From NCBI GenBank assembly GCA_024654125.1, contig JANLIC010000317.1:1-45112 (forward strand): a DNA stretch of 45,112 nucleotides, given 5' to 3'. Positions 4,396 through 35,526 of this stretch are shown here, piece after piece. The notes under the pieces are model-generated. The model was given only the letters and a program-made list of their open reading frames with translations. It ran no database searches and had not been told where the DNA came from. The DNA comes from Sulfuricaulis sp. (GTDB lineage: Bacteria; Pseudomonadota; Gammaproteobacteria; Acidiferrobacterales; Sulfurifustaceae). The stretch's first letter is position 1, and the number at the start of each line of letters is the position of its first letter. The position numbers and the translations under genes were made by a program.

Positions 4396-5415
4396 CTACT
4401 CGCTGGTCCGGTAAGTCGTACCCAGTTGGATAAGGCGTTGAATGAAGTCGTCATAGCTCATCCCGGCCTTGATGGCGGAATGCGTGCAGTCCTCATCGCG
4501 GGCAATACCGGGATTGGGATTGGCTTCAATCACGTAGATTTCGCCGTCAGCCGTGAGACGCAGGTCGACTCTCCCGTAGCCGTTCATGTCGAGCAGGTGG
4601 TAGACGCGCTTGCACAGGTGCTGGATGCGCTCCTCCATGCCGTTCGGCAGGGTGCGGGCGAACTGGTATTCGATACCCCAGCGTTCGCGGTACTTGTCGT
4701 CCCATTTAACCGCGTAGGTTGCCATCCTGGGCGTTCCCGGCTCGACGTTGTCGAATACCAGCTCGCGGATAGGCAGGACCTCGAGTTTGGCGTTTCCGAG
4801 GACCGTGACATACAGCTCGCGTCCGTCGATGTATTGCTCGGCGATGGCATCGCCATGAAGTTTGTCGTGGATCAGCGCCACGCGTTCGCGCAGCTGGTCC
4901 TCGTTCTCCACGTAAGACGCCTGGGCGATGCCGACCGAGCCTTCCTCGGTCAATGACTTGACGATCAGGGGAAAGACGAATTTTCGCCGTCGGCTGATCT
5001 TGCGGCCGAGCCGGAAGACGTAAAAGTCCGGAACACTGATGCGATGGTACGTGAGGATCATCTTGGTCAGCGCTTTGTCGCGCGCCAGCAGCAAACCGCG
5101 CGGATTGCAGCCGGTGTAGGGGATGCGCATCATCTCGAAATAACTGACAACGTAATAATCGAAGGCGCTGTTGCCGGCGAAGTCTTCCAGAAGATTGAAT
5201 GCGATGTGGGGCTTGAATTCCTCGTTCATCTTGCGAATCGGCATGAGATCGTCGTAAACGCCCACGACTTGGACTTCATGCCCGAGATTGATCAACGCGT
5301 TTTTGACGTCGTACTCGGTGCGGAACTTCTCCATGCGCGGATCATTTTTATCTTTCAAATCATCCGGTGGCACCAGCGTGTAGTGTACCACCATCATGAC
5401 GCGCAGTTTTTTCAT
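4396..5415 (-). CDS. ATP-grasp protein, D-alanine-D-alanine ligase-like
   Basis: 339 aa; FPLIVKSLTEEGSVGIAQAS, GRELYVTVLGN, GRVDLRLTADGEIYVIEANPNPGI and AGMSYDDFIQRLIQLG are typical of the D-Ala-D-Ala ligase type ATP-grasp fold. Confidence 0.88.
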   Translation of the reverse strand: MKKLRVMMVVHYTLVPPDDLKDKNDPRMEKFRTEYDVKNALINLGHEVQVVGVYDDLMPIRKMNEEFKPHIAFNLLEDFAGNSAFDYYVVSYFEMMRIPYTGCNPRGLLLARDKALTKMILTYHRISVPDFYVFRLGRKISRRRKFVFPLIVKSLTEEGSVGIAQASYVENEDQLRERVALIHDKLHGDAIAEQYIDGRELYVTVLGNAKLEVLPIRELVFDNVEPGTPRMATYAVKWDDKYRERWGIEYQFARTLPNGMEERIQHLCKRVYHLLDMNGYGRVDLRLTADGEIYVIEANPNPGIARDEDCTHSAIKAGMSYDDFIQRLIQLGTTYRTSE

Positions 5416-5428
5416 GATGCTGTCTCAA

Positions 5429-5620
5429 TACCCCCTCTCCCTTGAGGGAGAGGGCGGGGGTGAGGGTGATGAGGTATGCCATATCGCGGCGTCTCACCCC
5501 TCACCCTGGTTGTTCCCGCCGGGGTGCCATAAAACTCCATGGCACCCGTTCGGTGGCGTGAACACACGTTAAGTGTGTTCACGAAAACCCCACCTCACCT
5601 CCCCTGAGGGGAGAGGGGTA
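5429..5620 (+). repeat. Dispersed structured intergenic repeat, copy A
   Basis: Outer taccccctctccc...gggagaggggta; inner hairpins gggtgccat (5522-5530)/atggcaccc (5539-5547) and cgtgaacacac (5557-5567)/gtgtgttcacg (5573-5583). Shares linkers with copies at 7799-8045 and 28535-28666. Confidence 0.85.
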
Positions 5621-5631
5621 ATGAAATCTGT

Positions 5632-6717
5632 TCATATGGCGAGGCGCGACATCCCGCTGCGCAGCGAGCCCATGTAGAGCATCACGAGCGAAGCGATGAG
5701 CGCGGTCTTGGTTTCTTCCTTGTCGCGTGAGGCGTGAAGATTCATTTCCTCACAGCGGTGGATCATGTCCTCGATGGTCAGGTTGATACGATAGCGAGAT
5801 TCGGAGGTCCAGCGGGCGACGCTGTTGATGGCCTCGCGCCGCATTTTCCGGACGAAATGCGCGGCGCGCTCATTCTTGTGGCTGACCGAGGCGGGGAAGA
5901 TCTGCCGCAACTGCTGCTCGTGAAAGCATGGCAGATCCTGTTGCAGGCGCGTTTGCTTCTCCGCGAAATATTCGCGCAGCGTGATCCGCAGCGTGTTGAC
6001 CGAATCGACCTGCTTCTTGCTGCGCACCGGCGGCGTGTGGCCGACGATCTCCTTCATCAACGTGTCCACGTAATTGAGTTTCTTGATAGCCGGCCAGTCA
6101 CGGTATTTCTCACGCCAGCGCGAGCCCGGGTCGAGCCATACGGCGAAGGTCTCGGCCCAGTCCTCGGCGGGATGGCTCTGCGCGTACCAGTTGTCGAGGT
6201 GCAGCACGTAATTGCGGCTGTAGGGCCGCGGCAGGTAGCTTTCGGGATAGGTCTTGCTGTTGCGCCCGAAGCGGCGGCGCCAGCTTTGCTTCAGGTGCAG
6301 GCGATAGGCGTTGGCCAGCGCATGCGCGGTTTCGTGCCGCAGCAGCTTCATGCGTGACTCCAGCGTGGTGCCGTCGAATTCGAGCATGTGCGCTTTTTCC
6401 AGGCGCATGAGCCGCGGGTGCACGAGGAAGAACGGGATGGCAATTCCGGGCACGCCGTCCGGGCAAAACCAGCAGTCCGAAAGCCAGCAATGCGGGCGGA
6501 ACGCGAAGCCGCGGTTGGCGAGGTCATGCCACAGCAGCCTGACCTCTTTCTGGATCTTGCTGCCGTCGAGCGTAAGCCCCAGGTCGCACAGCCGGGTGTC
6601 CAGTAGGTTCTCATCGGATAAACGCGTCCAGGAGACTGCCGCCGGGCGCCGCGAGGTTTTCTTCCGGCTTTTCTTCCGGCGCAGTTTCTTGCGTTTTTTT
6701 ATTTTTTTGGAAGGGAT
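5632..6717 (-). CDS. Putative zinc-binding metallopeptidase (HExxH), probable non-canonical ATC start
   Basis: Frame open upstream of the listed ORF (5632..6453): ...SKKIKKRKKLRRKKSRKKTSRRPAAVSWTRLSDENLLDTRLCDLGL...GFAFRPHCWLSDCWFCPDGVPGIAIPFFLVHPRLMRLEK...LLRHETAHALANAY...AEDWAETFAVWLD. AAGGAG at 6724-6729, six bases before ATC (6717-6715); no ATG/GTG/TTG in frame before 6453. Confidence 0.7.
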   Translation of the reverse strand: MPSKKIKKRKKLRRKKSRKKTSRRPAAVSWTRLSDENLLDTRLCDLGLTLDGSKIQKEVRLLWHDLANRGFAFRPHCWLSDCWFCPDGVPGIAIPFFLVHPRLMRLEKAHMLEFDGTTLESRMKLLRHETAHALANAYRLHLKQSWRRRFGRNSKTYPESYLPRPYSRNYVLHLDNWYAQSHPAEDWAETFAVWLDPGSRWREKYRDWPAIKKLNYVDTLMKEIVGHTPPVRSKKQVDSVNTLRITLREYFAEKQTRLQQDLPCFHEQQLRQIFPASVSHKNERAAHFVRKMRREAINSVARWTSESRYRINLTIEDMIHRCEEMNLHASRDKEETKTALIASLVMLYMGSLRSGMSRLAI

Positions 6718-7712: not shown

Positions 7713-7798
7713 TGAACGATTGGCTTCAGGAAAGGATTCTACAAATGTGCCACGATCGCGGATGGCGACCCGGAATCGGAGTTGCTTTCATTCACATG

Positions 7799-8045
7799 CC
7801 CCTCACCCTTTGCCCCAATCGAAATAAAGATGCTCACTGACTCCCCTCTCCCTCCGGGAGAGGGCAAAGGGTGAGGGGGATCACCCCTCGTCCCCATCGT
7901 TTCCTGCCGGGGTGCGCGTACATCATGCGCACCCGCTCGATGGCGCGGATGTCCACCGGACATCCGCGACACCTCCATCTCGCCTCCCGCCAGGGGAGAA
8001 GGTACCCTCACCCCGACCCCTCTCCCGCAAGCGAGAGAGGGGAGT
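7799..8045 (+). repeat. Dispersed structured intergenic repeat, copy B
   Basis: 5' inverted repeat cccctcaccctttgcc (7799-7814)/ggcaaagggtgagggg (7863-7878); inner hairpins gggtgcgc (7910-7917)/gcgcaccc (7927-7934) and cgcggatgtcc (7944-7954)/ggacatccgcg (7958-7968); terminal ccctctcccgcaagcgagagagggg. Confidence 0.85.
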
Positions 8046-8164
8046 TCTGTAAGATCGGAGCCGTGGCGCGCTGGCGCACGCACCTCTTCACTCTGGGGGA
8101 GTTTGTTCGCTGACGCGCTTTTTCGGTTGGGCCCGATTACCATGTATCCAAGAATATATTAGGA

Positions 8165-27721: not shown

Positions 27722-27798
<77 letters not shown>

Positions 27799-27852
27799 TT
27801 TTCAATTGCGCATGGGTGATGCTTGGGATGTAATGTGCGGGCGTTTCTCCAG

Positions 27853-27928
27853 GCGCCCGTAGCTCAACGGATAGAGCACCAGCCTTCTAAGCTGGGGGTC
27901 GCAGGTTCGATTCCTGCCGGGCGCGCCA
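27853..27928 (+). tRNA. tRNA-Arg (TCT)
   Basis: gcgcccgtagctcaacggatagagcaccagccttctaagctgggggtcgcaggttcgattcctgccgggcgcgcca; loop ttctaag. Confidence 0.97.
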
Positions 27929-28010
27929 TACACGCTATACATGCCGTCCATGGCGGGACAGGGTAGATTCATCGCAGGTATAATATCCGGTGACTTGATC
28001 ATCAGTTCAC

Positions 28011-28088
28011 GGTGGGCGTAGCTCAGCTGGTTAGAGTCCCGGATTGTGATTCCGGTTGTCGTGGGTTCGAATCCCATCGCTCACCCCA
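28011..28088 (+). tRNA. tRNA-His (GTG)
   Basis: ggtgggcgtagctcagctggttagagtcccggattgtgattccggttgtcgtgggttcgaatcccatcgctcacccca; anticodon GTG and G-1/C73; TATAAT at 27979-27984 upstream. Confidence 0.96.
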
Positions 28089-28206
28089 ATTTTTAACCCG
28101 GGCCGGACTTCGGGCGAGGCAGGCAAGCGCAGCGACAAGTCCGGGCCGGTGTTCAGAATCGCTATGCCGCCGCGCCAGAGATGGCAGGCAAGTTAAGATA
28201 AAATTT

Positions 28207-28282
<76 letters not shown>

Positions 28283-28426
28283 TATTTTTGCAGCGCCGGG
28301 CGTTTTAATACGAGCGAAGGCCACTTCCCTCCCGGCGATGTCGCCTGCCTTCATCCCCCGGTCTTGCGGTGCGGCCTGTCCTGCCGAAGTCAGGCAGCTT
28401 GGCGCTATACTGTGCCCGGTATTACT

Positions 28427-28511
<85 letters not shown>

Positions 28512-28534: not shown

Positions 28535-28666
28535 AACTCCCCCTTTCCCGCGAAGGCGGGAGGTGAGACGGGGCTGTCACGAATGCACTTAACGTGCATT
28601 CGTGCCGTCGAACGGGTGCGCAAGATTCTCGCGCACCCTGGCGGGAATCCAATGGGGAGAGGGTCG
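28535..28666 (-). repeat. Dispersed structured intergenic repeat, copy C (inverted relative to A and B)
   Basis: Hairpins cacgaatgcac (28578-28588)/gtgcattcgtg (28594-28604) and gggtgcgc (28614-28621)/gcgcaccc (28631-28638); its reverse complement aligns to copies A and B. Confidence 0.85.
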
Positions 28667-28772
28667 TAAACCATGGCAAGACGGCTAACATTGTTGGCCT
28701 GCTCGCGGCGAATCGGTATGATTCCTGTATAAAATTCAGCAGTTCATTATTTAATGATTGTGGAGTTGTCCC

Positions 28773-35365: not shown

Positions 35366-35441
35366 GGGTGCTTAGCTCAGTTGGTAGAGCGTCGCCCTTA
35401 CAAGGCGAATGTCGGGGGTTCGAGCCCCTCAGCACCCACCA
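35366..35441 (+). tRNA. tRNA-Val (TAC)
   Basis: gggtgcttagctcagttggtagagcgtcgcccttacaaggcgaatgtcgggggttcgagcccctcagcacccacca; loop cttacaa. Confidence 0.97.
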
Positions 35442-35449
35442 AGAGACCG

Positions 35450-35526
35450 GGAGCGGTAGTTCAGTTGGTTAGAATACCGGCCTGTCACGCCGGGGGTCGC
35501 GGGTTCGAGTCCCGTCCGCTCCGCCA
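35450..35526 (+). tRNA. tRNA-Asp (GTC)
   Basis: ggagcggtagttcagttggttagaataccggcctgtcacgccgggggtcgcgggttcgagtcccgtccgctccgcca; anticodon GTC. Confidence 0.97.

Follow-up and report, generated by a model that had tools for sequence, protein, structure and literature searches.

The window analysed here, a stretch of 45,112 nucleotides from Sulfuricaulis sp. (contig JANLIC010000317.1), carries three copies of an intergenic repeat, and all three, with both perfect stems in each, are present as the original prediction described them. A covariance model (R1), derived from 19 of the copies in this genome and comprising 82 positions and 25 pairs, places the cores of these copies at 5515-5599 (+), 7903-7984 (+) and 28562-28645 (-), with genome-wide E values of 4e-18 to 4e-16. 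Core 1 (86.5 bits) lies in a composite insertion at 5416-5635 (+), which consists of a CCCTCTCCC-type host palindrome pair and the core and is flanked by a TTCAT direct repeat (5411-5415 and 5631-5635). Within this core, hairpin 1 is formed by GGGTGCCAT (5522-5530) and ATGGCACCC (5539-5547), a linker stem by GGTGG (5552-5556) and CCACC (5590-5594), and hairpin 2 by CGTGAACACAC (5557-5567) and GTGTGTTCACG (5573-5583), and the 3' end is CTCAC at 5594-5598. Core 2, the best match of the genome (95.2 bits), belongs to a composite insertion at 7733-8130 (+) and combines hairpin 1 GGGTGCGC/GCGCACCC, the linker stem GATGG/CCATC, hairpin 2 CGCGGATGTCC/GGACATCCGCG and the tip TCCACCGGA. Core 3 (87.8 bits), located between a tRNA gene (28427-28508) and an ORF starting at 28758, has hairpin 1 GGGTGCGC/GCGCACCC, the linker stem GACGG/CCGTC, hairpin 2 CACGAATGCAC/GTGCATTCGTG and the tip CACGTTAAGTG. 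The window holds seven tRNA genes (27722-28508 and 35366-35523), five of them clustered next to copy 3. The insertion at site 1 (5411-5635) parts two minus-strand ORFs that abut in congeners, and therefore sits within a probable operon junction.

The consensus of the element is about 84 nt long and reads 5' TT-S-C-N-GCC, hairpin 1, GTTCGSYGG, hairpin 2, CCRSCTCRC 3'; it occurs alone or inside larger multi-hairpin forms. The linkers had been taken as constant and by implication unpaired, but in each window copy they pair with the 3' flank in the linker stems given above. The GGYGG of the linker pairs with the 3' CCRCC and this pairing covaries between copies, as do the GT/AC and GC/GC pairs one step further out. 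Hairpin 2 is therefore longer than the 11 bp first noted, with a bulge on its 3' side. Since the linker is half of a stem, the core consists of hairpin 1 (9 bp) followed by a long bulged hairpin 2. The outer GC-rich hairpin, formerly counted as part of the element, proved to be a separate CCCTCTCCC/GGGAGAGGG palindrome, which is also present without the core and lies outside the core proper. Among 192 collected copies, the tip of hairpin 2 is TCCACYGGA-like in 119 and CACGTTAAGTG-like in 52, so that two classes account for 171. The linkers are near-constant and the tips far more constant than the stems, which drift in matched Watson-Crick pairs.

The three window repeats are members of a large family of short DNA elements, each with two hairpins. 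The R1 search finds 43 copies in the genome of origin (2.43 Mb in 346 contigs), and 24 of the 60 genomes searched, this one included, carry matches, with 1-53 copies each; other members of the genus have from 1 to 51 copies, and 53 is the highest number anywhere. In a class-wide draw of 274 genomes, 15 match at E <= 1e-6, the genome of origin and its sister G004 among them. An exact pattern scan of named genomes gave a patchy distribution in which clear members are mixed with chance coding matches; clear members among the matches listed come from Candidatus Muproteobacteria, Sulfuricaulis, Halomonas, Billgrantia, Lysobacteraceae, Rhodobacteraceae and scattered others. A search for plasmid carriage returned a single short match to the window composite, lying outside the core, and zero matches to the Halomonas-type copy.

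In the comparison with congeners the copies behave as insertions. Site 1 is uninserted in seven of them (G001, G002, G003, G005, G006, G007 and G008), with CAT|ATGGC or CAT|ATCGC; the flanks of site 2 are adjacent in G006, G004 and G001; and at site 3, in the gap between the tRNA gene and the ORF, the element is absent from G001, G004, G005 and G007. Thus the empty sites in relatives that the original prediction proposed to look for exist, in several congeners, for all three window copies. The sister genome G004, for which the statements made here cover 2.4 of 2.86 Mb, has at site 1 an orthologous composite with identical flanks and a different core. Hairpin 1, hairpin 2 and the outer stem (GGGTGAGGG/CCCTCACCC against GGGAGAGGG/CCCTCTCCC) all differ between the two composites and each is still paired. 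Since the G004 core also aligns well with other copies of G000 (L054 and L058), it is likely that cores were replaced or inserted independently. Site 2 holds the host palindrome without a core in G007, and the host with a core in G008, where a further element lies inside hairpin 2, between GCGCGGA and CACCGGACATCCGCG. A second orthologous pair, with and without a core in the host palindrome, is provided by L033 and G004; at these two host-only sites the gain or loss of the core is unpolarised. Most of the 19 sites compared with G004 are empty there or hold a different palindrome, and intergenic slots seem to exchange palindromes. The G004 orthologues of L037, L040, L051, L053 and L054 have a different palindrome in the same intergenic slot. 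As regards the short target duplication and terminal inverted repeats that characterise MITE or DDE-type elements, the whole composite at site 1 is bracketed by the 5-bp TTCAT repeat, no clear repeat was seen at the other sites, and the larger forms carry inverted cores at both ends. Taken together, these sequence comparisons support a probable mobility of the element.

The right end of the element follows a concrete rule. CTCRCC is followed by C in 159 of the 192 collected copies, and the joint therefore reads CTCRC^CC. These copies show a precise 3' end, with CTCRC joined to a target ^CC where a hairpin loop ends on its 3' side. The hairpin loops that serve as targets belong to other palindromes, to the element's own hairpins, in which it nests, and to tRNA and 5S genes. 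The left ends are less sharply defined than the right ones, and as a rule the target lacks a few bases. In G004 one core occurs in four palindrome families (GCCAAGACGCC, ACAGGATTAACAGG, CGGCGAAAGCCGG and CCCTCTCCC), and what follows the joint is the 3' arm from one of three unrelated genome repeats (CCTTGGCGTCTTGGCGG, CCTGTTAATCCTGT and CCGGCTTTCGCCGG). Uninterrupted palindromes in the same genome number 29 for GCCAAGACGCC, 65 for ACAGGATTAACAGG and 2 for the third (3' arm CCGGCTTTCGCCGG), as counted by a simple search in which overlapping matches may count twice. Outer-stem complementarity across the core is 7.24, compared with 5.97 for swapped flanks (standard deviation of means 0.08). The copies in the CCCTCTCCC host (group A), which include all window copies, join at ^CTCCC within the 5' arm of the host; the window copies therefore fit the loop rule least, and the rule was inferred mainly from other hosts. 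A position of group A copies in the loop of the host hairpin was considered and rejected in favour of one inside the 5' arm beside the loop. The CAGG and the CCTG of the ACAGGATT palindrome enclose two-ended forms, about 230 bp long, that carry inverted cores. Inverted cores also bound multi-hairpin forms, some 190-230 bp in length, in G004 (180658-180919, 1666-1667 kb, 1675 kb, 2067 kb and 753 kb) and in L045 (490-690).

The right flank is directly repeated upstream in 19 of 172 copies and inverted in 8, compared with 0 and 0 in the control. Repeats from the T loop start at GAAT^CC or AAAT^CC (tRNA-Arg, tRNA-Pro in two genomes, and tRNA-Ser), those from the D loop, read on the antisense strand, at CTAT^CC or CTA^CC (tRNA-Arg, -Thr and -Lys), and those from the anticodon arm at GAGT^CCCC, also antisense (tRNA-Met), all with tRNA genes called by ARAGORN; an insertion in a 5S rRNA loop, identified by sequence recognition, is found at GGGGTCT^CCCC. 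At the tRNA and 5S insertions the end of the gene is duplicated. In L385 (G211) the element lies within the 5S rRNA gene, the 3' end of which is duplicated in tandem, and three loci of G075 (L386, L392 and L396) hold tandem arrays of element plus tRNA fragment, of about 145 or 200 bp per unit, that adjoin tRNA-Met and tRNA-Arg. The element thereby ties intergenic palindromes to insertions in tRNA and 5S genes, and the joining of CTCRC to ^CC at the 3' loop edge offers a concrete rule for the spread and nesting of some small bacterial palindromes.

The pairing of the stems is not a matter of chance. It is kept in 96.8% of cells in the 19 copies from the genome of origin and in about 95-97% across sets, the linker pairs of the A4 copies being fixed by sampling, since these copies were picked by exact linker pattern. 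In the 19 copies, 81 two-sided changes, spread over 15 of the 25 pairs, were observed against 25.5 +/- 3.8 in shuffles, and the covariation score of 0.478 (0.190 +/- 0.016 in shuffles) was reached by none of 500 shuffles, with slid structures scoring at most 0.145. The covariance model and covariation test that had been proposed for the element thus gave covariation far above shuffles, in a genome with 43 copies; the stems are paired in most copies, and no catalogued family was matched. A structured non-coding RNA family, whose stems would covary under selection at the RNA level, could account for covariation this strong and for the conservation of unpaired tips and linkers, but it meets the mismatch counts badly. 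Among 3355 cells of 139 distinct copies, 3211 are Watson-Crick, 47 G-T and 51 A-C, while 44 tRNAs of G004 gave 55 G-T and 0 A-C with a tRNA finder that hardly permits A-C. Selection acting on an RNA from either strand should make one mismatch type the commoner; neither is favoured and both are equally rare, which argues for pairing at the DNA level and disfavours an RNA motif. Moreover, the copies are insertional, nested and found within tRNA and 5S genes, and Rfam matches only the tRNAs in the window, its best hit over a core being a weak one to BjrC80 (24.8 bits against a cut-off of 80). An RNA gene or riboswitch was rejected on the wobble counts together with the absent Rfam match, and the broader reading as an RNA family is very improbable. 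Strong covariation without an RNA signature is a warning for covariation-based RNA discovery. As to the structure-based selection suggested by the original prediction, the structural constraint is supported by the covariation and its RNA option is disfavoured. Selection on a DNA hairpin and copying from arm to arm are both compatible with the paired changes. Taken to its extreme, the latter would make the element a pure mutational by-product, in which template switching during replication makes and re-perfects palindromes without any enzyme or selected function. Paired changes without intermediates in young multi-hairpin copies (hairpin 2 arms TAC/GTA, CAC/GTG and CCC/GGG) agree with this, as does the fact that all right-hand hairpin 2 differences of young two-ended copies are paired, and the CC shared at the junction could be microhomology. 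Among the nearest core pairs (<=6 differences), 4 double and 14 single changes were counted in about 350 pairs; the double changes exceed chance (about 0.1 expected if arms change independently), yet the single ones are commoner, and the impression from the 19-copy set that one-sided changes are nearly absent was too strong. Hairpin-generating copying, as originally proposed, may thus contribute. As the whole explanation it is improbable, given tips and linkers far more constant than the stems, a precise 3' junction across hosts and a core that recurs across taxa.

Among explanations that invoke a known type of mobile DNA, miniature integrative elements derived from tyrosine-recombinase islands at tRNA genes, and spread later, would explain why the repeats (mostly 16-43 bp) start at the loops of the T, D and anticodon arms, include the end of the tRNA and so resemble integrase attachment sites, and why tandem units in G075 contain tRNA fragments. 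In tRNA-gene integrative elements, the crossover lies at the anticodon or T loop. The insertion into such loops and the duplication of the tRNA end are likewise shared, and target duplication at tRNA genes also fits site-specific recombination of the integrase type. However, only about one copy in ten has such repeats, a single family makes use of many different tRNAs, and the same 3' end joins REP, GCCAAGACGCC, ACAGGATT, self hairpins and 5S, many targets thus not being tRNA genes. The direct repeats are spaced 131-437 bp apart, too short for an integrase gene, and none lies within the element, which leaves this origin unlikely, though the least so of the alternatives weighed here. Short intergenic palindromes at tens of copies per genome also recall ordinary REP/BIME or REPIN-type repeats moved by a RAYT (Y1 HUH) transposase, particularly since REP dimers nested in palindromes are on record (CGTC-1 in H. 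neapolitanus and GTAG-15 in A. variabilis; PMC3733652) and G004, G008 and G020 have Y1 genes whose size would suit a RAYT. Unlike REPs of the GTAG and CGTC superfamilies (PMC3733652), the element has no unpaired GTAG or CGTC (TGTC/CCTC) tag at the hairpin foot, its copies showing TTSCNGCC and GTTCG as 5' feet and CTCRC as 3' end, and its linkers and tips are constant while the stems vary. The original prediction had already drawn this distinction, and it holds: copies of one genome share no common stem sequence, and their paired columns vary with compensation. Its further suggestion of a TnpA-REP/Y1 HUH association was not borne out, as the element is absent within about 1.5 kb of 20 Y1 loci (best loci only), none of which has a RAYT gene flanked by the element above background. 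Nor does the presence of Y1 track the element: the genome of origin has one weak Y1 match, and no match was found in the element-bearing G001, G012, G014, G015, G017 and G038, some of these assemblies being incomplete. Movement by a RAYT is therefore scarcely probable.

Other systems share single traits with the element. IS1397 and ISPpu9-type insertion sequences also insert into palindromes, there REP (PMC1525189, PMC8450116), and are full insertion sequences with a transposase gene, whereas here a gene-less unit of 84 nt enters RNA genes as well as palindromes of unrelated families. Rickettsia palindromic elements and Neisseria dRS3 (CGTC REPs) are likewise interspersed bacterial palindromes, some within genes; the present element differs in its consensus, its two-hairpin core and its target rule CTCRC^CC. 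The repetitive hairpin and double-hairpin elements of mitochondria, together with the fungal double-hairpin elements and yeast GC clusters cited with them (PMC2800124), resemble it in mobile-looking single or double hairpins, tandem multi-hairpin forms and presence in RNA genes, but in the sponge mitochondrial elements the stems are conserved and the loops vary, the reverse of the bacterial case.

We consider it probable that the copies represent a non-autonomous, loop-targeted palindromic mobile element. Its functional form would be a folded DNA strand or a cruciform, whose tips and linkers may be read by an enzyme supplied in trans, and this enzyme would join the 3' end of the element (CTCRC) to hairpin loops at their 3' edge. 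Complementarity alone would be required of the stems, which could thus drift by compensatory change, possibly aided by template switches in which one arm is copied from its partner. The idea of a single-stranded DNA transposition substrate, contained in the original prediction, survives insofar as a DNA hairpin fits best, and is weakened by the lack of a Y1/HUH link and of strand bias: no mobilising protein was found where Y1/HUH association was examined, and whereas IS200/IS605-type transposition would favour the lagging strand, a closed genome, over 2.4 Mb, has 13 leading against 18 lagging copies (p = 0.47) and so no replication-strand bias, in a comparison of weak power that includes some copies in inverted pairs. 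The open-access literature, searched by element sequence and keywords, yielded no description of the element, nor one of constant linkers and tips with variable stems and loop-edge joints across palindromes and RNA genes. Beyond mobility itself, it is conceivable, though we hold it with some doubt, that the element stands for a class of bacterial mobile DNA not previously described, which targets the DNA hairpin loop as such. An enzyme of this kind would take a folded donor with two hairpins and join it to any stem-loop at the 3' edge of the loop, so that palindromes, tRNA T, D and anticodon arms, a 5S loop and the element's own hairpins could all serve, with nested palindromes as the result. 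As a loop-directed DNA-joining activity, such an enzyme would merit interest. On viral contigs (L089-L109), many cores of the hairpin 2 type resemble those in Rhodobacteraceae genomes, and some appear to be situated inside coding sequence or at its end.
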